Source of the DNA: a virus
Length of the DNA: 44,483 bases
Strand: one strand, 5' to 3'
Virus record (IMG/VR): IMGVR_UViG_3300034110_000469
Span: 1 to 44,483 of that record
Under the pieces are notes generated by a model, which made no database searches, had not been told where the DNA came from, and was given only the letters and a program-made list of their open reading frames with translations. The position numbers were made by a program, and so were the translations under genes. This document shows positions 8,557 to 34,135 of the stretch, piece by piece. Positions within the stretch are counted from its first letter, which is position 1. Every line of letters begins with the position of its first letter.

Positions 8557-9080
8557 GCGGCGCAACTATGGGCCGCAAATCGGCCACTGATCCGAATAAG
8601 AAGGACTACTGGAACACTCCCTGGCACGCCGTCCAGGACGCCAGCGCGCTGATCGGGATGCCGTTCACGCTGGACGCCTGCGCGATCGATGGCAACGCAG
8701 CCAAGGCACGCGAGTGGATCACGCCAGAGCAGGACGCGCTGAAAACGCCCTGGCTGTCTGCAGCTGGTGCCGTCTGGTGCAATCCGCCGTTTTCCAACAA
8801 GCTGGCGTTTCTGGATCGCGCATACCAGCAGGCCAAGCAATACGGCCGGACAGTGGTTTGCATGATCCCACAGGAACCGGCGACAATCTGGTGGCAGCGT
8901 TATGTCTACGGCCGCGCCAGTTTTGTTTTCGTGCCTAATGGCCGATACAATTTTCTGGATCAGGAAACAAAACAGAAGTCTGACGGCTGCAACTTCTGCA
9001 CCTGTTTTGTGGTTTATACGCCGCTAAACGTTCCGACGCAGTACGTTCACTTCGAACGCGGGATCGGTTCGCGTGCCTAA
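8553..9080 (+). CDS. Phage N-6-adenine DNA methyltransferase (Dam-like)
   Basis: 175 residues. Residues about 16-40 (KKDYWNTPWHAVQDA ... FTLDACA) and the catalytic NPPF motif (VWCNPPFSNKLAFLDRAY, about 72-90) define the phage Dam family, which methylates adenine using SAM. VVCMIPQEPATIWW and RASFVFVPNGRYNF are also typical. Length is normal. A second ATG at 8568 is also possible. The genome is unusually rich in GATC (see findings), the usual target of this family, although the sequence does not show specificity. Confidence 0.82.
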   Translation: MSGATMGRKSATDPNKKDYWNTPWHAVQDASALIGMPFTLDACAIDGNAAKAREWITPEQDALKTPWLSAAGAVWCNPPFSNKLAFLDRAYQQAKQYGRTVVCMIPQEPATIWWQRYVYGRASFVFVPNGRYNFLDQETKQKSDGCNFCTCFVVYTPLNVPTQYVHFERGIGSRA

Positions 9081-9330
9081 CCTATGCACCTGGCAGGCGC
9101 CGACGGTTACGCTGCGCGATGGTCGCCAGGTGCGCAGCGATTCGGTCGAATGGCTGAAAGAATGCAAGGAACGGCACGAACTGGCCAGCCTGATTTTATC
9201 CTGGCCAATAGAAAAACGGCGCGTTTATTTATTCGATCAGAAAACCGGTTTCGGCCAGCGCTATGGGCAAGAACAACTGGAACGGCTGCAGGCCGAAATC
9301 AAAAGACAGTTTTCGAGGCAAAAAAAATAA
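9073..9330 (+). CDS. Hypothetical protein (GTG start)
   Basis: 85 residues. The GTG at 9073 overlaps the methylase stop region by 8 bases. The sequence SDSVEWLKECKERHELASLILSWPIEKRRVYL is a recurring short phage protein of unknown role, usually beside replication genes. The C-terminus is a basic helix (EQLERLQAEIKRQF). No catalytic motif. Confidence 0.5.
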   Translation: MPNLCTWQAPTVTLRDGRQVRSDSVEWLKECKERHELASLILSWPIEKRRVYLFDQKTGFGQRYGQEQLERLQAEIKRQFSRQKK

Positions 9331-9331
9331 C

Positions 9332-11608
9332 ATGCAAACAATGCCAGAGCTAACACCACAAGACATAGGCGACGCGCTGCAATACGTGAACGCAGACGAT
9401 CGCGACACCTGGCTGAAAATGGCCATGGCTGTGAAATCCGAGCTAGGCGATCACGGTTTCGAAATCTGGGATCAGTGGTCCAGGACGTCCGGCCAGTACA
9501 ACGAACGCGACGCGCGCCACGTCTGGAAATCGTGCAACGCGCACGGCAACGTCACGATCGGTTCGCTGCTGTTTGAAGCTAAGCAGGGCGGGTTCGTCCT
9601 GGCGAGCAATGACAACCGCATGACAGCCGAACAGCTGGCAGAGCGTCAGCGGGTACGGGACGAAGCGCGCCGGCAGTCGATTGCTGACCAGAAGCAGCGC
9701 GAGTATGACGCGGCGATGCTGGCCGGCGAAATCTGGGACGACGCGATCGACTGTGCCGATCACCCGTACCTGGAACGCAAAGGCGTGAAGGCATACGGCC
9801 TGCGCGTTGGTCGGTGGCCACTGCGCAACAAGTCCGGCGAGATCTACAACTACGCAGAAAACGCGCTGCTGGTGCCGGCGCGCAGTTCAGGATCCAAACT
9901 GACAACGCTGCAGGCGGTTTTCTCGCAGCTGCCGGCCGGCTACGCGACCGACAAAGCGTTTTTGAAAGACGGCGTGAAGTCTGGCAGCTGGCACACGATC
10001 GGCGACTTCAGCACCGCCAGCACAGTGGCGTTATGCGAAGGCTACGCAACCGGCGCGACAGTTCACGCGCTGACAGGCTGGTGCGTCCTGGTCTGTTTTG
10101 ACCGCACGAACCTGATCACCGTTGGCAAGAAAATCAAACCGCACGCGGACGGCAAAACGCTGATCGTCTGCGCGGACAATGATCGGCACACTGCAGGCAA
10201 CCCAGGGATCACCGCGGCCAAGGCTACCGGATCCGAAATCGGGGCGCGCGTGCTGATCCCAGAATTCACCGACGACGACAGCGGCACCGATTTCAACGAC
10301 CTGGCGAACGCGGAAGGCGACGACGCAGCACGCGAACAGCTGACTGGCCACCAGGTCGCCAAGGTGGCCAAAATGCCGACGCCGGACCAGGTGGACTTTT
10401 ATACGCCGCTGCCGGACATCAACAGCACCGGCAAACCGTTGGCGACGATCGAAAACCTGGCGGCCATAGTCAACCGGCTGGGAGTGACGATCCGGTACAA
10501 CGTGATCAAGAAGGAAGAAGAAATTCTGATCCCAGGCGAATCGTTCCTGATCGATAACGAGGCGAACGCGTCGCACAGTTGGCTGGAATCCTGGTGCGCG
10601 CGTTTCCGTATGCCATCGGGCAACCTGGGCGGTTTCGTCACGTACCTGGCCGACAAGAACCCGCACAACCCTGTCGCCAATTGGACCGAGTCGAAACCCT
10701 GGGACGGCGTCACCAGGCTGCAGGCACTATACGACACAGTCAGAACCAAGTCGGACAAACGCACGCCCAGCGGCGAGCGGCTGCGCGACATTCTGATCAA
10801 ACGCTGGATGATTTCCGCAGTAGCTGCAGCGTTCAACCCGACAGGCGTCAGCGCGCACGGCGTTCTGACGTTCCAGGGGCCGCAGTACATCGGGAAAACG
10901 CTATGGCTGAAACGCCTGGTGCCTGAATCGCTGGGAGTGGTGCAGGACGGTATGATCCTGCGGCCGGACGATCGCGACAGCGTGAAACAGGTCTGCTCAT
11001 TCTGGATCGTGGAGCTGGGCGAACTGGACGCCACGTTTAAAAAATCCGACATAGCCGCGCTGAAAGCGTTCCTGACCAAGAAAAACGACGTCCTGCGCCG
11101 AGCGTATGCCAGGAAGGATTCGCAGTTTGCACGGCGGACCGTTTTTTTCGGTTCGGTGAACCCTAAAGAATTCCTGCACGATCCAACGGGGAACCGGCGC
11201 TACTGGGCGATCGATGTTGAATGGCTGGACCTGACGCACACGATCGACATGCAGCAGGTCTGGGCCGAAGTGCTGCACCTGTACCGGAACGGCGAAGGGC
11301 ACTATTTAAAACCGGAAGAAATGGACGCGCTGAACGGCAGCAATGAAGATTTCCAGGTGGTCGATCCTGTCGAAGAACGGATCCAGACCAGACTGAACTG
11401 GGACGCGGCGCCGATCGAATGGGAGTGGCGCACAGCCACCGACGTGCTGATCAGCGTTGGCATTGACAAGCCGAACCAAGCAGACGCCACCAAGGCGGCG
11501 CACTGTATCAGGAAGATGAACAACGGCGAGGGGAAGCGATCGAACGGCCGGAACCTGTTACTGGTGCCACCAGTAAGGACCGGAACGGCGAGCACGTCGC
11601 CCTGGTAA
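9332..11608 (+). CDS. Primase-helicase: PriCT-2, Toprim and VapE/VirE ATPase domains
   Basis: 758 residues from the ATG at 9332, the first good start after the preceding stop; an in-frame upstream start at 9263 would overlap that gene by 68 bases. Order: PriCT-2-like region (about 5-85, DRDTWLKMAMAVK), linker, Toprim domain (LCEGYATGA at about 234, ADNDRHTAGNPG at about 281), then a VapE-type ATPase with Walker A GPQYIGKT at about 517 and FWIVELGEL. It probably makes primers and unwinds DNA at the phage origin. It is the last gene before a strong terminator and therefore closes the main replication transcript. Confidence 0.88.
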   Translation: MQTMPELTPQDIGDALQYVNADDRDTWLKMAMAVKSELGDHGFEIWDQWSRTSGQYNERDARHVWKSCNAHGNVTIGSLLFEAKQGGFVLASNDNRMTAEQLAERQRVRDEARRQSIADQKQREYDAAMLAGEIWDDAIDCADHPYLERKGVKAYGLRVGRWPLRNKSGEIYNYAENALLVPARSSGSKLTTLQAVFSQLPAGYATDKAFLKDGVKSGSWHTIGDFSTASTVALCEGYATGATVHALTGWCVLVCFDRTNLITVGKKIKPHADGKTLIVCADNDRHTAGNPGITAAKATGSEIGARVLIPEFTDDDSGTDFNDLANAEGDDAAREQLTGHQVAKVAKMPTPDQVDFYTPLPDINSTGKPLATIENLAAIVNRLGVTIRYNVIKKEEEILIPGESFLIDNEANASHSWLESWCARFRMPSGNLGGFVTYLADKNPHNPVANWTESKPWDGVTRLQALYDTVRTKSDKRTPSGERLRDILIKRWMISAVAAAFNPTGVSAHGVLTFQGPQYIGKTLWLKRLVPESLGVVQDGMILRPDDRDSVKQVCSFWIVELGELDATFKKSDIAALKAFLTKKNDVLRRAYARKDSQFARRTVFFGSVNPKEFLHDPTGNRRYWAIDVEWLDLTHTIDMQQVWAEVLHLYRNGEGHYLKPEEMDALNGSNEDFQVVDPVEERIQTRLNWDAAPIEWEWRTATDVLISVGIDKPNQADATKAAHCIRKMNNGEGKRSNGRNLLLVPPVRTGTASTSPW

Positions 11609-26318: not shown

Positions 26319-26896
26319 ATATAGATACTGGAATTGATCTTAATACGCTGCACGCGTCGATCGTTGCCGACATTCGGGCAAAATTTCCGACGCTGGCAAC
26401 CGTTGAATTTTACCGCGAAGAACGCACACAGCTGCCGACGCCTGCCTGCCTGCTGTCACTGACAGAACTGGAAGCGGCAGAAGACGAGGATCCAGGCACT
26501 GAACAGATCGCGGTTTACGCGCATTTCGAAGCGCAGCTGATTATCAGTTTTAGACAGCCGAACGCTAAGAATTCGATCAGGAATCTGGCCGGCGCGTTTT
26601 TGGGTTTCCTGCGCAAGCGCAAGTGGACCGATCCGGCGAACCCAGGCAAGAAACTGCCGACAGGCGAGTGCCTGCCAGTGGGCGCGTATGAGGACGATTT
26701 CGCCAGCATGATGGCCGGCCAGCGCGACACACCGCTGGATCAGTTCGAAATTTTCCGCGTCGAATGGCGACAGCTGATCAACCTGGGCGAAACCGCCTGG
26801 AACGACGAAGGCGTGACGCCGTCGATCGTGTTTCTGGGGCAGGTGCCGAAAATTGGGCCGACACACCTGGAAGATTATGTGCAGGTGGCGCCATGA
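26315..26896 (+). CDS. Neck/tail-terminator-type protein
   Basis: 193 residues. IVADIRAKFPTLATVEFYREERTQLPTPACLLSL and TEQIAVYAHFEAQLIISF give an alpha-beta fold like tail terminator proteins (gpU of lambda, Gp37 families). Gene order (after Z-like, before V) supports a role closing the neck. The assignment is by order and fold impression, not by a clear signature. Confidence 0.5.
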   Translation: MNIDTGIDLNTLHASIVADIRAKFPTLATVEFYREERTQLPTPACLLSLTELEAAEDEDPGTEQIAVYAHFEAQLIISFRQPNAKNSIRNLAGAFLGFLRKRKWTDPANPGKKLPTGECLPVGAYEDDFASMMAGQRDTPLDQFEIFRVEWRQLINLGETAWNDEGVTPSIVFLGQVPKIGPTHLEDYVQVAP

Positions 26897-27579
26897 GTTT
26901 TGAACTGTCAGAAATGCAGCGCCAGCTGGCCAATGTGGTGCGCGTAGGTCGGATCGTTGAGCTAGACGAGGCCGAAGCGCGCGTGAAAGTCACAACCGGC
27001 GGCCTGACAACCGCCTGGCTGCCATGGGGCGCAGCACGTGCCGGCACAACACGATCCACCAGTATGCCGAGCGTTGGCGAACAGGTGGTGCTGTTTTCGC
27101 CGTTCGGCGATACCGCGCAGGCCGTTGTCGGGTTTTCGCTGTACCAGGACAATCACCCAGCCGCGAGCAACAGCAAAGACAAAGACGCGACGATCTACCC
27201 AGACGGCAGCGTGGTGGAATACGACAGCGCCAGCAACACGCTGACCGTGACAGTGAGCGGCAGCGGCAACGTGGTGATCAATTGCAAAGTTGCGACCGTG
27301 AACGCTGAAACCAGCGCGACGATCACGACAACCGACGCCACAGTGAACGCCAGCGCCAGCGTCGCACTGAACACCCCAGAAACGACCTGCAGCGGCAATC
27401 TGACAGTTGCAGGCGCGATCGCTTATGGCCAAGGTATGACCGGCACAGGTGGCGCGACAATCAACGGCGATTTTGCAGCGCAAGGCGGCGCGTTCAGCCA
27501 CAACGGTAAAAACGTGGGCAGCACGCATTCGCACAGCGGCGTCACACCTGGCGGCGGGAACACAGCCGCACCGAACTAG
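26893..27579 (+). CDS. V: Baseplate spike protein, P2 gpV type
   Basis: 228 residues from the ATGA at 26893. The OB domain (VVRVGRIVELDEAEARVKVTTGGLTTAWLPWG and SVGEQVVLFSPFGD) is followed by a beta-helix spike made of alternating Val/Thr/Ala strands. The tip ends THSHSGVTPGG, the HxH that binds iron at the point in P2 and phi92 spikes. It pierces the outer membrane. The interspersed repeat begins one base after its stop. Confidence 0.88.
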   Translation: MSFELSEMQRQLANVVRVGRIVELDEAEARVKVTTGGLTTAWLPWGAARAGTTRSTSMPSVGEQVVLFSPFGDTAQAVVGFSLYQDNHPAASNSKDKDATIYPDGSVVEYDSASNTLTVTVSGSGNVVINCKVATVNAETSATITTTDATVNASASVALNTPETTCSGNLTVAGAIAYGQGMTGTGGATINGDFAAQGGAFSHNGKNVGSTHSHSGVTPGGGNTAAPN

Positions 27580-27621: not shown

Positions 27622-27969
27622 ATGGCCAGCATGAACGGAACAAATTCACAGACAGGCAAGAGCCTGGCAGGGATCGAACACCTGCGCCAAAGCATCCGCG
27701 ACATACTGACAACGCCGATCGGCAGTCGGGTAATGCGTCGCGACTATGGATCGCGTCTGTTCGAGCTTATCGACGCACCAATGAACCGCAGCACGCTGCT
27801 GGAACTTTACGCAGCCACTGCAGAGGCGATCGAAAAATGGGAACCCCGATTCCAACTGATCAGCGTTCAGGCCGTCACTGCGACACCTGGGCGCGTAGAA
27901 TTGGACATGGTCGGTAAGTACCTGATCGACGGCCAAACGATTAAACTAGACGGAATCATAATTGAATAA
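27622..27969 (+). CDS. W: Baseplate wedge protein, P2 gpW (gp25-like)
   Basis: 115 residues. LAGIEHLRQSIRDILTTPIGSRVMRRDYGSRLFELIDAP is the gp25/W signature (the EPR-like contact region follows at EKWEPRF). It forms part of the baseplate wedge that triggers sheath contraction. ATG at 27622 or 27631. It overlaps J by one base. Confidence 0.88.
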   Translation: MASMNGTNSQTGKSLAGIEHLRQSIRDILTTPIGSRVMRRDYGSRLFELIDAPMNRSTLLELYAATAEAIEKWEPRFQLISVQAVTATPGRVELDMVGKYLIDGQTIKLDGIIIE

Positions 27970-28868
27970 TGGCCAGCACTTACACGTCTATTAATTTATC
28001 GAACGTACCGGCGCCGACGATAGTCGAACAGATCGACTATGAAGTCATACTGGCCGCGATGATTGCGGATCTGCAGGCGCGCGATCCGTCGTTTTCCGCG
28101 CTGGTGGAATCGGATCCGGCCTATAAGGTTTTGGAGGTTTGCGCGTACCGCGAGACCCTGATCCGCCAACGCTGCAACGAATCCGCGCGCGCAGTCATGC
28201 TGCCTTACGCGACGGGCACCGACTTAGATAATTTGGTGGCCCTGATGAACATGGCGCGACTGGTGGCCGTCCCAGAAGATTTAAACACGATCCCGCCGAC
28301 GCTGGCTGTGATGGAAACGGACGACGAACTGCGGCGCCGTGCGCTGCTGGCGTGGGAATCATTGAGCACCGCCGGACCTGCTGGCGCATACATTTATCAC
28401 GCACTGAGCGCTGACGGCGAAGTGAAGGACGCGAGCGCCACCAGCCCAGTGCCTGGCCAGGTTGTTGTTACTGTCCTAAGCCGTGACGGAAACGGCACGC
28501 CAAACGCCGGAACACTGGCTGCAGTTGAATCGCGCCTGACGTCTGAAAGCGTCCGGCCGCTGACTGATCAGGTCACTGTGCAAGGGCCATCGATCACCAC
28601 TTACCAGATCGTTGCGACGCTGTATTTATTCCCTGGTCCTGACAGTGCTGTGGTTCTGGCATCGGTCCAAGCGTCTGCGGAGAATTTCGCGAAGAACAGC
28701 CATCGGCTGGGCGTTGATGTGACGATCTCAGGATTATACGCGGCATTGCACCAGCCAGGCGTTCAGCGCGTGGAGTTGATACAGCCAGCCGCTGCGCTGG
28801 TGATGGATGCGCACCAAGCGGCCTATTGTACGCTGGTGCAGATCGGTTTCGGTGGCCGCAATGAATAA
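27969..28868 (+). CDS. J: Baseplate assembly protein J
   Basis: 299 residues, normal for P2 gpJ (gp6-like wedge). Typical segments: VEQIDYEVILAAMIADLQARDPSF, ALVESDPAYKVLEVCAYRETLIRQRCNE, YATGTDLDNLVALMNM, DDELRRRALLAWES and STAGPAGAYIYHALSADGEVKDA. It joins wedges into the baseplate ring. It overlaps I by 8 bases. Confidence 0.88.
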   Translation: MASTYTSINLSNVPAPTIVEQIDYEVILAAMIADLQARDPSFSALVESDPAYKVLEVCAYRETLIRQRCNESARAVMLPYATGTDLDNLVALMNMARLVAVPEDLNTIPPTLAVMETDDELRRRALLAWESLSTAGPAGAYIYHALSADGEVKDASATSPVPGQVVVTVLSRDGNGTPNAGTLAAVESRLTSESVRPLTDQVTVQGPSITTYQIVATLYLFPGPDSAVVLASVQASAENFAKNSHRLGVDVTISGLYAALHQPGVQRVELIQPAAALVMDAHQAAYCTLVQIGFGGRNE

Positions 28869-30435
28869 TCTGCTGCCGCCGAACGCGACACCGCAGGAAG
28901 TTGCACTAGTTGAAACAACAGAACGCATAGACGCGATCCCAGTCAGATCGCGCCAGATGTGGAACCCGCAGACGTGCCCAGCCAACCTGCTGCCGTGGCT
29001 GGCGTGGGCGTGTTCGGTTGACGAGTGGAACGCCGAATGGTCCGAACAGCAGAAGCGCGACACGATCGCGGCATCGTTCGCCATTCACAGCACAAAAGGT
29101 ACGCTGGCCGCTGTCAAATCGAGTCTGGCCGCACTGGGTTACAACAGTAATATAACTGAGTGGTTCCAGCAGCCTACGATCTTGCCACCGTACACGTTCA
29201 CCGTTGACATTGACGCGGGAACGTCGCCGATTTCCAGCGATATTTTTAGCGAGTCAACCCGACTAATTGAGCAAACCAAAAACACCCGCAGCCACTTGGC
29301 GCGGTTGCGCGTGGCCAGTTCTGCGCCGGTCCAGTTTTACGGAGCGGTGGCGCAGTCATACGGTATTTACTGCGCGGCTGGTGGCGCGCTGTCTGTTGTT
29401 GGTGGTCGGCCGTTGTTGCTGAAAGCCAATGCGTTCGCCGTGGCGTCCGCTGCCGCAAACCTGACGTCATTGGTTGTTCGTTATTTTGCCTCTGGTCACG
29501 TGGATGGCGATATTCAGATCTGGAAGGTTGACGGCACAGCATTTACCGCAGTGTCGGATCCGGATATTAAGCCAGGTTTCGAAAGTTCAAACCTGATTTA
29601 TGGTATAGATTTCAGTCCGAACGCCGACTACCTTGTGGCAGCGTGCAACCAGTCGCCTAGGATCTATCTATACAAACGCACTGGCGATACATTCGCGAAA
29701 TTGCCAGATCCGGCTGTATTGCCTGGTGGCGTTGCTGGCGGTGGTGCGCGGTTCAGCCCTGACGGGATTTATTTAGCTGTCAGCGGCAACGGCGGTTTGC
29801 AGATATACCAAAGAAGTGGCGACACGTTCACAAAGCTGACTGATCCGGTCAACAGCATGGGCGGGACGTCCTGCGCATGGAATAGAAACGGCGACTATTT
29901 AGCATCATCGAGCGGGAACACGTTTCCATACATATATTCTAGATCTGGCACGATTTTCACAAAAATCGCCAACCCGACGACAGAGCTACCAAACCGCGCC
30001 AACGGCATGGCATTCAGTCCAATCTCAGATCTGCTAATCTGCGCACACGAAGGCGCGCCATTCATTAGCGTGTCAAGTATCACCGGAGGCGTTCACACTA
30101 GGCACGCGAACCCTGCAGTTTTGCCGACATCAACAGCAAAAGCAGTCGCTATCAATCCGGCGGGAAATATTGCTGTTGTCGGATTTTCGTCAGCGCCTTA
30201 CTTGCTGGTTTATACAATAGCGGGAACAACACTGACTAAGCTGCCAGATCCTGCTGTGTTGCCAGATTCGCAGGTTAACAGTTTAGCATTCAACGCGGAA
30301 GGCACAGTGCTGACCGTTGGATTTTCGTCAGAGCCTTACTTGGTCACTTATTCGGTAAGTGGCACGACATTAACACAGATCAGCAATCCGCCATCAATAC
30401 CGGCGACTGCCATCTTTGGCAGTGATTTTTCATAA
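28861..30435 (+). CDS. I: Tail protein I fused to a C-terminal beta-propeller
   Basis: 524 residues, far longer than P2 gpI (about 180). Residues 1-180 are gpI (SRQMWNPQTCPANLLPWLAWACSVDEWN; KGTLAAVKSSLAALGY). After a Gly/Ala linker, residues about 200-524 hold seven repeats of about 41-44 residues with the pattern FSPDGxYLAV ... YxRSGDTFTKLxDPAVLP, that is, WD40-like blades. The last strand (IFGSDFS) could close the ring with the first partial blade (RYFASGHVDGDIQIW). gpI links baseplate to fibres, so the propeller probably adds a binding surface. Confidence 0.8.
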   Translation: MNNLLPPNATPQEVALVETTERIDAIPVRSRQMWNPQTCPANLLPWLAWACSVDEWNAEWSEQQKRDTIAASFAIHSTKGTLAAVKSSLAALGYNSNITEWFQQPTILPPYTFTVDIDAGTSPISSDIFSESTRLIEQTKNTRSHLARLRVASSAPVQFYGAVAQSYGIYCAAGGALSVVGGRPLLLKANAFAVASAAANLTSLVVRYFASGHVDGDIQIWKVDGTAFTAVSDPDIKPGFESSNLIYGIDFSPNADYLVAACNQSPRIYLYKRTGDTFAKLPDPAVLPGGVAGGGARFSPDGIYLAVSGNGGLQIYQRSGDTFTKLTDPVNSMGGTSCAWNRNGDYLASSSGNTFPYIYSRSGTIFTKIANPTTELPNRANGMAFSPISDLLICAHEGAPFISVSSITGGVHTRHANPAVLPTSTAKAVAINPAGNIAVVGFSSAPYLLVYTIAGTTLTKLPDPAVLPDSQVNSLAFNAEGTVLTVGFSSEPYLVTYSVSGTTLTQISNPPSIPATAIFGSDFS

Positions 30436-30448
30436 CTAAGGGCAGGCA

Positions 30449-32044
30449 ATGAGCTATATCACTCTAATAACAAACGCGGGGCTTGCGAAGATCACCGCCG
30501 CAATTGCTGGCGGTACTCAGATCACGCTAAGCCAGATCGCTGTCGGCGACGGGAACGGCAACCCGACAACCCCAGGGCAGACGCAAACGGCGCTGGTTAA
30601 CGAGCGTTACCGCGCCAGTGCCAACCAAGTGGCGATCAACAGCGAAGGCAAGCTGGTGGCGGAACTTATCATTCCGCAGAGCATCGGCGGTTTTACCGTG
30701 CGCGAAATCGCACTGTTTGACAGCACCGGCACGCTGTTTGCTGTGGGATCAACACCAGCGATCCAGAAACCGACTGTGGCAGAAAACGCTGCGGCCGAAC
30801 TGGTGATCCGCCTGATTGTTGCGATCAGCAATGCAGCAGTGATCCAACTAACCGCGTCGAGTTCGATCGTGGCGACACGCGACTGGGTAGAATCAAACTT
30901 TGCACTGGACGCGCTGTTTCCTGGTGGGACCACGAACCAGATCCTGCGCAAAAAATCTAACCTTGATGGCGATACAGAGTGGGCGAACCCGACAAACGTT
31001 AACGTCACAGTGAACACAATCGAGGAAACGCAGACGCTGGCAAATGCCCAAGTATTGGTTACGCTGGCGACTGCAACGACTACGGGCGCGGCTGTTTACA
31101 TCGATGGGATCCGGCTACCCCGTGCGCGGTATACCGTAAACAGCGCGACTCAGATCACACTTACGCAGTCTTACCCTGCAGGTTCGCTGATCACTGTCGT
31201 GCAAAATGAGCCGTCGGCACAAATTCAAGCCGTGCCAGTTGGTCAAGTGGTTTTACTGGGATTGTCCGCGCACCCTGCGCAGCTGTTCGGCTATGGCACT
31301 TGGCTGCAGGTCGGTAAGGGCCGCGCGCTGTTCGGTCTGGATGATGCTGACGCAGATTTTAACACGTTAGGGAAGACCGGCGGCCAAAAGCTGCACGCGC
31401 ACAGCGGTCTTACAGAGGTGGCAGGTAGCCACAACCACGGCGCAGCAGTCGCGGCAGCTGGCAGCCACAACCACGGCGCAGTCACAGCGGAAGGCGGCGA
31501 CCACAACCACGGCGCAACAACCGGCAACGCAGGCGCACACACCCACGGCAGCGTCACAGGTAGCGCAGGCGCCCACAGCCATGGCGGAACGTCTGGCGGT
31601 ACAGCGCTTACACCAGACCAGATCCCAAGCCACGATCACACGTACCGCGATCGGTATTACGCTGAGAACGGCGGAAGTTTGATTTCTGCGACATACAAAG
31701 AGGCAATGCCAAACAGCTACAATGCGGGACTTGGCTCGTCTGATACTGATTTCGACAACAATCAGTTTATGTATATCGACAAGACCACAGGCGCGACCGG
31801 CGGCGGACAGGCGCACAGCCACACGATCCAGACCGAAGCGGCCCACAGTCACACAGTCACCGCAGAACCGGCGCACGCGCACACGATCACAGGTTCAGGC
31901 ACGCACACGCACGCCGTTTCTGCCGATGGTACGCACACGCACGCCGTTTCAGCAGACGGCACGCACAGCCACGTTCTGACCACTGCGCAGACTACCAGTT
32001 TGCCGCCGTATTTCACCGTCGCCATGTGGCAGCGCACGGCATAA
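30449..32044 (+). CDS. H: Tail fibre with tail-collar N-terminus and HxH arrays
   Basis: 531 residues. The N-terminus SYITLITNAGLAKITAAIAGG ... ITLSQIAVGDGNGNPTTPGQ ... GFTVREIALFD is the P2 gpH/DUF3751 baseplate-binding domain. A middle domain (about 185-260) and a collar-like turn (GTWLQVGKGRALFGLDD) follow. Then come 13 His-x-His motifs in two arrays around an ALTPDQIPSHDHTYRDRYY segment. In T4 gp37 such motifs bind iron in a thin needle at the receptor-binding tip. It is the main adhesin candidate. Confidence 0.82.
   Translation: MSYITLITNAGLAKITAAIAGGTQITLSQIAVGDGNGNPTTPGQTQTALVNERYRASANQVAINSEGKLVAELIIPQSIGGFTVREIALFDSTGTLFAVGSTPAIQKPTVAENAAAELVIRLIVAISNAAVIQLTASSSIVATRDWVESNFALDALFPGGTTNQILRKKSNLDGDTEWANPTNVNVTVNTIEETQTLANAQVLVTLATATTTGAAVYIDGIRLPRARYTVNSATQITLTQSYPAGSLITVVQNEPSAQIQAVPVGQVVLLGLSAHPAQLFGYGTWLQVGKGRALFGLDDADADFNTLGKTGGQKLHAHSGLTEVAGSHNHGAAVAAAGSHNHGAVTAEGGDHNHGATTGNAGAHTHGSVTGSAGAHSHGGTSGGTALTPDQIPSHDHTYRDRYYAENGGSLISATYKEAMPNSYNAGLGSSDTDFDNNQFMYIDKTTGATGGGQAHSHTIQTEAAHSHTVTAEPAHAHTITGSGTHTHAVSADGTHTHAVSADGTHSHVLTTAQTTSLPPYFTVAMWQRTA
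31394..31582 (+). repeat. HxH array 1, 12-residue period
   Basis: Six His-x-His motifs (HAH, HNH, HNH, HNH, HTH, HSH) at exactly 36-base intervals, mostly of the form G-S/A-H-x-H-G. Confidence 0.85.
31814..31972 (+). repeat. HxH array 2, 10-residue period
   Basis: Six His-x-His motifs (HSH, HSH, HAH, HTH, HTH, HSH) at exactly 30-base intervals, with the unit HTHAVSADGT duplicated at the DNA level. Confidence 0.85.
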
Positions 32045-32062: not shown

Positions 32063-32572
32063 TTGAGATCACTAGAATACATTATGGCAAGCGGCATTGT
32101 TCTGCCGTTCGCTGGTGCGGCAGCACCAACCGGCTGGCTGTTATGCCAAGGGCAGGCAGTTAACCGCGTGACTTATGCGGCGCTGTTCGCCGTCATTGGG
32201 ACCACTTACGGCGCTGGTGACGGTTCGACCACGTTCGGCGTTCCTGACATGCGCGGCGAGTTTCCGCGCGGATTGGATGCAGGCCGCGGCGTTGATTCCG
32301 GCCGGACGCTAGGCAGCGCGCAGAAAGGCACGATCATGCCGATCGACAGCACCGGCGATAACCAGCCATACGTTCCGGCGTTCACGTCTACGCCTGGCCC
32401 TGGCGTTGCAGACACTGCGCTGGTGGCTGCGCGCACAGGTTTGGACGTTGGCAGCGCTGGCGACTACCCAAACACAACCCCCCTTTATGTGAACGGCGGC
32501 GGTTCCGGCGGTTTTTTTCATGGCGTCGCACGACCCCGCAATATCGCACTGAATTTTATCATTAAAACCTAG
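32063..32572 (+). CDS. Tail collar domain protein
   Basis: 169 residues from the TTG at 32063 (AGGAG 10 bases upstream) or 162 from the ATG at 32084. GIVLPFAGAAAPTGWLLCQGQAVNRVTYAALFAVIGTTYGAGDGSTTFGVPDMRGEFPRGLD is the phage collar fold, and ARPRNIALNFIIKT is the conserved end. Such domains occur at fibre tips or in short companion fibres. It follows the main fibre and is closed by a terminator, so it is probably a second tip or fibre component. Confidence 0.8.
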   Translation: MRSLEYIMASGIVLPFAGAAAPTGWLLCQGQAVNRVTYAALFAVIGTTYGAGDGSTTFGVPDMRGEFPRGLDAGRGVDSGRTLGSAQKGTIMPIDSTGDNQPYVPAFTSTPGPGVADTALVAARTGLDVGSAGDYPNTTPLYVNGGGSGGFFHGVARPRNIALNFIIKT

Positions 32573-32588: not shown

Positions 32589-32616
32589 GACCGTCCTTCG
32601 TGGCGGTCTTTTTTTT
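32589..32616 (+). terminator. Rho-independent terminator after fibre genes
   Basis: GACCGTC paired with GGCGGTC through a CTTCGT loop, followed by eight T residues. It separates the baseplate/fibre unit from the sheath unit. Confidence 0.85.
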
Positions 32617-32618
32617 AG

Positions 32619-32638
32619 GGAAAACCCACAAGAGGAAG
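32619..32638 (+). repeat. Interspersed 20-base repeat, copy before sheath
   Basis: GGAAAACCCACAAGAGGAAG, directly after the terminator and 67 bases before the sheath start. Confidence 0.7.
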
Positions 32639-32704
32639 CACCGCCAGAGCGCTGCCACCATGGTGCGAGCATTGCACAACTTTGCCAGCACTAAGGAAAA
32701 CCAA

Positions 32705-34135
32705 ATGAGTGAACTATTTTTGCACGGCGTGGAGGTGGTCGAAGTCGATACCGGCCCACGTCCGATCGCCACTGTCCGATCAAGTGTGATCGGCATCGTT
32801 GGCACAGCGCCGAGCGCTGACGCTACCGCATTTCCCCTTAACACCCCTGTACTGATCGCAGGCAGTCGCCGAGAGGCTGCAGCACTGGATCTTCTGGGCA
32901 CAGGTCTGGGCACGCTACCGGCGGCCGTCGATTCTATTCTGGATCAGACTGGCGCGGTTATCGTCGTGATCCGCATCGAGCAGGGCGCAGACACAGCCGC
33001 AACACTGGCCAACGTACTGGGCGGCGTGAATGCTGTCACAGGCAATTACGAAGGCGTGCACGGTTTCTTAGGCGCCGAATCCGTTGTGGGTTTCCAGCCG
33101 CGCATTCTGTTGGCGCCAGGCTTTACCGACACGCGCCGCGCTAACGCAGTGACTGCGATCACCGTTACCAACCAAGGCACTGGCTACACCAGCGCGCCGA
33201 CCGTTGCGCTAACTGGTGGCGGCGGTACAGGTGCGACGGCAGTGGCTGTTCTTGGCACTGGCGCGAACGCAACGAAGGTTGTCAGCGTCCGCGTGACGAA
33301 CCCAGGCACCGGCTATACCAGCGCGCCTACAGTCGCATTTTCTGGCGGCGCCGGATCAGGCGCTGCAGCGACGGCCAGTTATGGCACGTTGGGCAACGCT
33401 GTGGTTGCTGAGCTTGTCGGCATTGCCGAACGTCTGCGCGCGGTGATTATCGCCGACGGTCCAAACACTACCGACGCAGCCGCGATCGCTTACGCTGGCG
33501 ATTTTGGCAGCAAACGCGTTTACGTGGTGGATCCAAAGGTTATCAAAACCGACGCCGAAGGCGAGCCGGTTACAGCATGGGCCAGTCCTTGCGTCGCTGG
33601 CCTTATCGCGAAATCAGACAACGAACGCGGTTTCTGGTGGTCGCCATCTAACCAGGCGATCAATGGCATCATTGGCACTGGTCGGCCTATCGATTTCACC
33701 CTGGGCGATTCGAGCAGCCGCGCCAACCTGCTGAACGAATCCAAGGTGGCCACAATCATTCGACAAAATGGCTGGCGGCTGTGGGGCAACCGTTCGCTGT
33801 CTGCGGATCCTAAGTGGGCGTTTTTGTGCGTAGTTCGCACCGCCGACATTATCAACGACAGTCTAATGCGCGCACACCTGTGGGCAGTGGATCGAGGGAT
33901 TACCAAAAATTACATTACCGACGTAACAGAGGGCGTGAACAATTATCTGCGCTATCTGAAATCGATCGATGCTATACTGGGCGGCGAATGCTGGGCGGAT
34001 CCAGATCTGAACACTGCGGACCAGATCGCACAGGGCAAGGTGTATTTCGATTTCGATTTTACGCCGGTTTACCCTGCAGAGCATGTGACGTTCCGCAGCC
34101 AGCTGACTAACGATTACATTCAGGAGATCTTTTAA
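32705..34135 (+). CDS. FI: Contractile tail sheath protein with inserted repeat domain
   Basis: 476 residues from the ATG at 32705 (CTAAGGAAAAC upstream). The P2 FI signature is clear: FLHGVEVVEVDTGPRPIATVRSSVIGIVGTAP, RILLAPGFTD, AELVGIAERLRAVIIADGP, RGFWWSPSNQAINGIIGTGRPIDF and the C-terminal DFTPVYPAEHVTFRSQ. Residues about 150-232, between APGFTDTRR and AVVAELVG, are two tandem copies of VTNxGTGYTSAPTVxxxGG with Gly/Ala-rich ends. This insertion would lie on the outside of the sheath ring. Confidence 0.9.
   Translation: MSELFLHGVEVVEVDTGPRPIATVRSSVIGIVGTAPSADATAFPLNTPVLIAGSRREAAALDLLGTGLGTLPAAVDSILDQTGAVIVVIRIEQGADTAATLANVLGGVNAVTGNYEGVHGFLGAESVVGFQPRILLAPGFTDTRRANAVTAITVTNQGTGYTSAPTVALTGGGGTGATAVAVLGTGANATKVVSVRVTNPGTGYTSAPTVAFSGGAGSGAAATASYGTLGNAVVAELVGIAERLRAVIIADGPNTTDAAAIAYAGDFGSKRVYVVDPKVIKTDAEGEPVTAWASPCVAGLIAKSDNERGFWWSPSNQAINGIIGTGRPIDFTLGDSSSRANLLNESKVATIIRQNGWRLWGNRSLSADPKWAFLCVVRTADIINDSLMRAHLWAVDRGITKNYITDVTEGVNNYLRYLKSIDAILGGECWADPDLNTADQIAQGKVYFDFDFTPVYPAEHVTFRSQLTNDYIQEIF

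Follow-up and report, generated by a model that had tools for sequence, protein, structure and literature searches.

A P2 gpI-type baseplate wedge protein fused to a predicted seven-bladed beta-propeller, a putative accessory adhesion domain of a P2-like phage tail

Introduction

In phage P2 and related contractile systems, gpI and its counterparts are located at the baseplate periphery, and receptor-binding proteins are attached to them there (PMC10811340). Beta-propellers are known from phage adhesion proteins, i.e., phi11 Gp45, PRD1 P2 and phiKZ gp131 (PMC4901313), and propeller lectins are carried by extracellular injection systems (PMC12923769). In the open-access papers searched, we found no earlier account of a gpI-type wedge protein with a propeller, and the protein described here is a new combination of a known wedge protein with a known fold.

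The protein is encoded in a 44,483-base metagenomic viral contig (the window, i.e., the whole stretch of DNA that was analyzed), which also encodes an integrase, a lambda-type portal and a gpA-type terminase and, given these genes, is probably that of a temperate phage whose tail is P2-like.

Fusion Gene and Tail Module

The fusion gene is placed between the gene for the wedge protein gpJ (27969-28868) and the tail fiber gene (30449-32044), as gpI is in P2, and the fiber gene follows it directly, in agreement with the original prediction of a propeller beside a fiber gene. The main features of the tail module are as follows (L001 and L002 are two related contigs described below).

26764-27579, gpV-like spike
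27622..27969, plus strand, baseplate wedge gpW/gp25 (PF04965, 9.8e-17; 25% identity to the L001 counterpart)
27969..28868, plus strand, baseplate wedge gpJ, upstream of and outside the proposed cassette (PF04865, 5e-25; 30% identity to the L001 counterpart)
28861..30435, plus strand, gpI-propeller fusion gene, 524 aa (open frame; Pfam; architecture also in L001 and L002)
28873..29409, plus strand, gpI / Tail_P2_I baseplate wedge domain (PF09684, phrog_48, PDB 6u5b)
29410..29472, plus strand, linker, residues 184-204 (low confidence in the model)
29473..30432, plus strand, predicted seven-bladed beta-propeller, residues 205-524 (AlphaFold2, Foldseek)
30449..32044, plus strand, tail-collar fiber, 531 aa, proposed cassette partner (PF12571, 1.8e-41; PF21939, 5.2e-18; 69% to the L001 fiber)
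32063..32572, plus strand, tail collar domain protein, 169 aa (PF07484, 3.4e-26; 57% to the L001 counterpart)
32600-34135, tail sheath

The fusion gene is an uninterrupted ATG-to-stop frame (28861-30435) with neither an internal stop nor a frameshift. An alternative in-frame ATG is present upstream at 28807; position 28861 was taken as the start because the N-termini of gpI relatives resemble its product (MN.LLPPNAT). From its length of 524 residues, compared with about 180 in P2 gpI, the frame had been read as gpI fused to an extra part, and the profile searches bear this out: Tail_P2_I (PF09684) covers residues 5-143 (E = 1e-46; 158.7 bits vs. a Pfam cut-off of 20.6), the conserved gpI region extends to about residue 183, and the protein matches phrog_48 (1.5e-63). 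Among solved structures, the gpI part is closest to Tri2, a wedge protein of R2 pyocin (PA0619, PDB 6u5b, E = 1e-27). By analogy with PA0619 and with the published account of such baseplates (PMC10811340), the gpI part would sit in the wedge, partnered by two gpJ copies. The gpI portion of the AlphaFold2 model is of low confidence (residues 174-203 have a pLDDT below 50), and high confidence is confined to the propeller. Other gpI proteins carry other, different C-terminal extensions (L011-L014, 5887-6567; L016, 5833-6729), which suggests that domain addition at the end of gpI may be a general phenomenon; the extension in L016 contains a repeated DDSYDYxVxYP motif.

Repeats are also present in two neighboring virion proteins. 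In the sheath (32600-34135), two glycine-rich repeats (GxGYTSAPTVxxxGGxGTGA) are inserted at residues about 175-262 and possibly form a surface decoration domain; these repeats also match portions of unrelated virion proteins (phrog_701, phrog_19630, phrog_708). The fiber gene contains a long His-rich collar region (31291-31980) with repeats such as GSHNHGA and GTHTHAVSADGTH, and the fiber is most divergent from that of L001 around residues 400-500 (20-40% identity).

Predicted Fold of the C-Terminal Part

AlphaFold2 predicts the C-terminal part as a seven-bladed propeller, as had been anticipated, with pLDDT mostly above 90 for residues 205-524 (45-sequence alignment); seven blades are predicted already from three sequences, and in both runs the model is a closed ring of seven four-stranded blades. 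The two runs also agree on the proposed arrangement of six full blades and one split between the two ends, the split blade being composed of residues 207-230 (strands B, C and D) and 518-523 (strand A). The repeat length originally given as 41-44 residues needs correction, as the actual blade spacing is 43-46 residues.

29479..29550, plus strand, split blade, N-terminal part with strands B, C and D (RYFASGHVDGDIQIW...; strands 207-213, 218-224, 227-230)
29596..29700, plus strand, full blade 1, residues 246-280 (AlphaFold2 and blade matches)
29734..29835, plus strand, full blade 2, residues 292-325 (AlphaFold2, both runs, and blade matches)
29863..29967, plus strand, full blade 3, residues 335-369 (AlphaFold2, both runs, and blade matches)
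29998..30105, plus strand, full blade 4, residues 380-415 (AlphaFold2, both runs, and blade matches)
30136..30240, plus strand, full blade 5, residues 426-460 (AlphaFold2 and blade matches)
30274..30381, plus strand, full blade 6, residues 472-507 (AlphaFold2 and blade matches)
30412..30429, plus strand, split blade, C-terminal closing strand A, residues 518-523, IFGSDF (strand 518-523, AlphaFold2)

In canonical WD40 ring closure, the N-terminal strand is the outermost one. This closure was not found in the window model, where the innermost strand, A, is supplied by the C-terminal end and the other three (B, C and D) by the N-terminal side (AlphaFold2); of the suggested WD40-like ring closure, the closed ring holds and the canonical mode of closing it does not. 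At the sequence level, the WD40 profile PF00400 passes its Pfam cut-off for the whole protein (44.8 bits vs. 27), and the C-terminal part reaches 193 bits with a blade profile derived from other phages, whereas none of 500 shuffled versions exceeds 3.9 bits. The repeats of the window propeller contain no WD dipeptide and just one GH, which, together with the closure by an innermost C-terminal strand, makes the propeller sequence WD40-like but non-canonical. GH and WD dipeptides are frequent in the WD40 family but not universal (PMC6851490).

Among solved structures, Foldseek matched the model to seven-bladed designed propellers (7bid, 7bie), to 6-phosphogluconolactonase-type propellers (1ri6, 6nau) and to a bacterial WD40 domain (5yzv); among viral models, it matched a protein of phage POR1 (TM-score 0.81 on the target) and M4QPW5, whose 562 residues equal the length of the CGphi29 propeller protein. 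With E values up to 1 considered, the lactonase profile PF10282 gave no match to the window protein; it passes its cut-off in the related CGphi29, L075 and L114 proteins.

Recurrence of the Fusion and Cassette Exchange

The search for the same fusion elsewhere, proposed originally, identified it in two more contigs. L001 (an IMG/VR contig) has the same gpI-propeller architecture in an intact 533-aa frame, in keeping with the expectation of a single protein with no missed stop or frameshift; in L002 (an environmental viral contig), the fusion is present as far as the contig end. Similarity is continuous across the gpI-propeller junction. A whole-protein query against viral contigs gave no match, and the relatives were found with a propeller query and with an alignment query instead. 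A query with the gpI-propeller junction returned plain gpI proteins alone and no further fusions; a distant DNA search with the junction gave no match in E. coli genomes, and the sole match in a scan of cellular genomes was a distant actinobacterial protein of WD40 type (25%).

Identity between the window and L001 is unevenly distributed: it is 25% for gpW, 30% for gpJ and 26% for gpI residues 1-107, rising to about 50% for residues 108-204, 58% for the propeller and 69% for the fiber, with 78% over the first 50 residues of the fiber N-termini. Owing to this step from 25-30% upstream to 58% and 69%, the gpI end, propeller and fiber look like one cassette exchanged between unlike baseplates, a reading of one full contig pair (window and L001) plus L002, where the fusion meets the contig end. 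The third-position GC of the propeller (0.50) is lower than that of all 48 equal-sized stretches from nine other window genes (minimum 0.60), and the L001 propeller follows the same trend (0.54 vs. 0.60-0.64), which fits a later arrival of the propeller.

Distribution of the Propeller Among Phage Tail Proteins

The PHROG 19311 profile matches the window protein (E = 2.3e-17; best stretch residues 421-504). None of the 50,697 annotated phage records has a place that covers 80% of the fusion protein, and only six of them contain the propeller at E below 0.001. A scan of viral contigs with the motif K-R-x-G-D-T-F-T-K yielded at least 120 stretches, a lower bound on the family; this exact motif is missing from the window protein, so that gpI fusions with diverged repeats may be missed. 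Among the matches listed, the commonest repeat length in frames with the scan motif is 46 residues, and most of these frames give seven or eight blade matches; the N-terminal anchors fit tail families in 6 of the 10 tested, as follows.

L075, propeller anchored by a wedge subunit
L099, by a hub or tail protein
L119, by a tail-collar fiber
L103, by a further tail protein
L114 and L089, by fibers

Pseudomonas phage ZRG1 (OQ504961; L007, 9062-10864) has the propeller downstream of a tail terminator domain and a DPTPDP-repeat linker, in a protein annotated as hypothetical. In L075, two propeller frames adjoin each other (1-999 and 1002-2594), and the second opens with a phrog_203-like baseplate wedge subunit domain, so that a wedge protein of a different baseplate type may have gained its propeller independently. 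A hub-like protein (starting LGITVKIGGVDKTEYVDARTLSIRDELTSKVNSASFDF) with an internal propeller insertion is present in L099 (312-3137), L053, L137, L129, L151 and similar contigs, several of which are related. The 714-aa protein of L006 (ctYwJ313, 8840-10984), with about 15 blade matches, probably consists of two tandem propellers.

Attachment to gpI is seen only in the window, L001 and L002 among the loci compared and matches listed. L119 and L076 have a plain gpI gene near the propeller gene, and in L119 it adjoins a fiber that carries the propeller itself. Judged by the number of motif stretches and the many different tail-protein carriers, the propeller is common and mobile in phages, its attachment to gpI being the rare part. 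The original description of a baseplate propeller as unusual is accordingly too broad for phage tails, where many tail proteins carry one, and apt for the rare gpI attachment.

Variability of the Blades

Across 714 blades from the matches listed, differences between blades of the same protein are greatest in two loops, B-C (0.88, 0.80) and D-A (0.87, 0.85). Many scaffold positions have values of 0.05-0.25, and variation is lower in the other two loops (A-B and C-D) and at most strand positions, the low C-D value being due partly to the motif used for choosing this set. Eight proteins found by homology show the same three peaks, at positions 13, 41 and 43 (0.88, 0.85, 0.86); in these, several strand positions vary too and the contrast is weaker than in the 714-blade set. 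The B-C and D-A loops share one face in any propeller. Between the window and L001 propellers, the top loops are 42% identical vs. 68% for the bottom loops; repeats are 74% alike inside one protein and 59% between proteins. The centering of variation on the B-C and D-A loops, i.e., on one face, favors a binding face; since propeller top loops vary generally, variability by itself is no proof of receptor binding.

Discussion

With gpI positioned at the baseplate periphery and carrying the receptor-binding proteins (PMC10811340), its C-terminal domain would be expected near the fiber root. We consider it fairly likely that the propeller is an accessory (second) adhesion domain at this place, the putative ligand being a host-surface molecule. 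The fusion, the predicted fold, its recurrence, the joint exchange with the fiber and the one-sided variability come from the present analysis, and the position of gpI from the literature; exposure of the propeller on the virion, ligand binding and an effect on contraction are what we infer. In the proposed mechanism, the N-terminal 180 residues of gpI would take the usual wedge place at the baseplate rim, where P2-like fibers attach, and the C-terminal propeller would hang at the fiber root. Constant strands and bottom loops would serve as the framework, and a sugar or protein of the host surface would be bound by the variable loops, B-C and D-A, which share one face; this second contact would help to keep the baseplate on the cell ahead of sheath contraction. 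As an ordinary fiber gene is retained, the propeller would not necessarily be the main receptor-binding part.

The main rival to accessory adhesion is fiber docking, in which the variable face would bind the neighboring fiber or a chaperone, the wedge would take a matching fiber only, and variation would track the fiber and not the host. Propellers are classic protein-docking platforms, propeller and fiber move together over unlike baseplates, and gpI counterparts are the fiber attachment site, at which some phages insert connector proteins (PMC10811340). We regard docking as rather unlikely, though worth serious consideration: the propeller is found on the fiber itself, beside a plain gpI, in L119, as well as on hub and terminator proteins, where fibers do not usually dock, and the propeller top loops of the window and L001 differ widely despite conserved fiber N-termini (78%, first 50 residues). 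A structural cap or spacer, stabilizing or enclosing the baseplate rim with no specific ligand, would suit the large size and rigidity of the domain and its place at the outer tip of a wedge protein, and has a parallel in the other C-terminal extensions of gpI proteins (L011-L014, L016), but it leaves unexplained both a conserved scaffold with variation on one face and the transfer onto unrelated tail proteins, and seems to us distinctly improbable.

There is very little to recommend an enzyme, i.e., a propeller of lactonase or glycan-cleaving type acting on the host surface. The 6-phosphogluconolactonase-type propellers (1ri6, 6nau) are among the best fold matches and the lactonase profile scores above its cut-off in related proteins (CGphi29, L075, L114), but it has no match to the window protein itself, and the most variable positions would lie on the very face where an active site needs conserved residues. 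An assembly artefact, frameshift or missed stop joining two genes, a concern with any contig of metagenomic origin such as the window, is ruled out to near certainty, as the independent contigs L001 and L002 share the join and similarity runs smoothly through the junction.

Beyond accessory adhesion at the fiber root, we tentatively suggest, as a possibility that we hold with less conviction, that the propeller is a portable recognition ring: one family would move among wedge, hub, terminator and fiber proteins and change specificity by reshuffling near-identical blades with variable loops on one side, in the manner of the HNWD proteins compared below; here, placed on the wedge, it would let the baseplate itself read the host surface. 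If true, host recognition by P2-like tails is not limited to the fiber, and the wedge that starts contraction could touch the receptor. The propeller family provides many natural cases of a rigid scaffold with a variable face on differing tail parts, and, with many of its carriers annotated only as hypothetical, the way in which phages swap adhesion domains becomes directly testable.

Comparison With Known Systems

The P2 gpI family, including R2 pyocin Tri2 (PA0619) and the T4 gp7 family (BW3), is similar to the window protein in the N-terminal 180 residues and has in common with it the gene order gpV-gpW-gpJ-gpI-fiber and the presumed wedge role, but members of about 180 residues stop where the window propeller begins. 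The PHROG 19311 proteins (Salicola CGphi29, Pseudomonas POR1 and ZRG1, Rhodobacter RcMotherGoose) belong to the same propeller family by sequence, and the POR1 and CGphi29 propellers resemble that of the window in fold too; however, none of these phage proteins is fused to gpI, and ZRG1 has the propeller on the tail terminator and encodes gpI separately. The C-terminal domain of phiKZ gp131 (PDB 4GBF) is, like the window propeller, seven-bladed, and it is located at the baseplate periphery with a proposed receptor-binding role (PMC4901313), although it is outside the best 50 fold matches listed for the window propeller and its carrier is not described as a gpI protein. In phi11, the receptor-binding protein Gp45 is a baseplate protein with a propeller and a proposed GlcNAc site (PMC4901313), but, unlike the window propeller, it has five blades and is a trimeric, separate protein of a siphophage.

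A likeness in mode of evolution only connects the phage propellers with the WD40 sensors of Podospora HNWD proteins (het-d, het-e), which are fungal immune receptors: in both, near-identical repeats differ at a few hypervariable sites, which in the HNWD proteins form the recognition surface (PMC12222747). Among contractile systems, predicted WD40 domains with a proposed role in host recognition are found in diffocin RtbM and in second fibers of some C. difficile phages (PMC13324602); those domains reside on receptor-binding or fiber proteins, whereas that of the window resides on the wedge.
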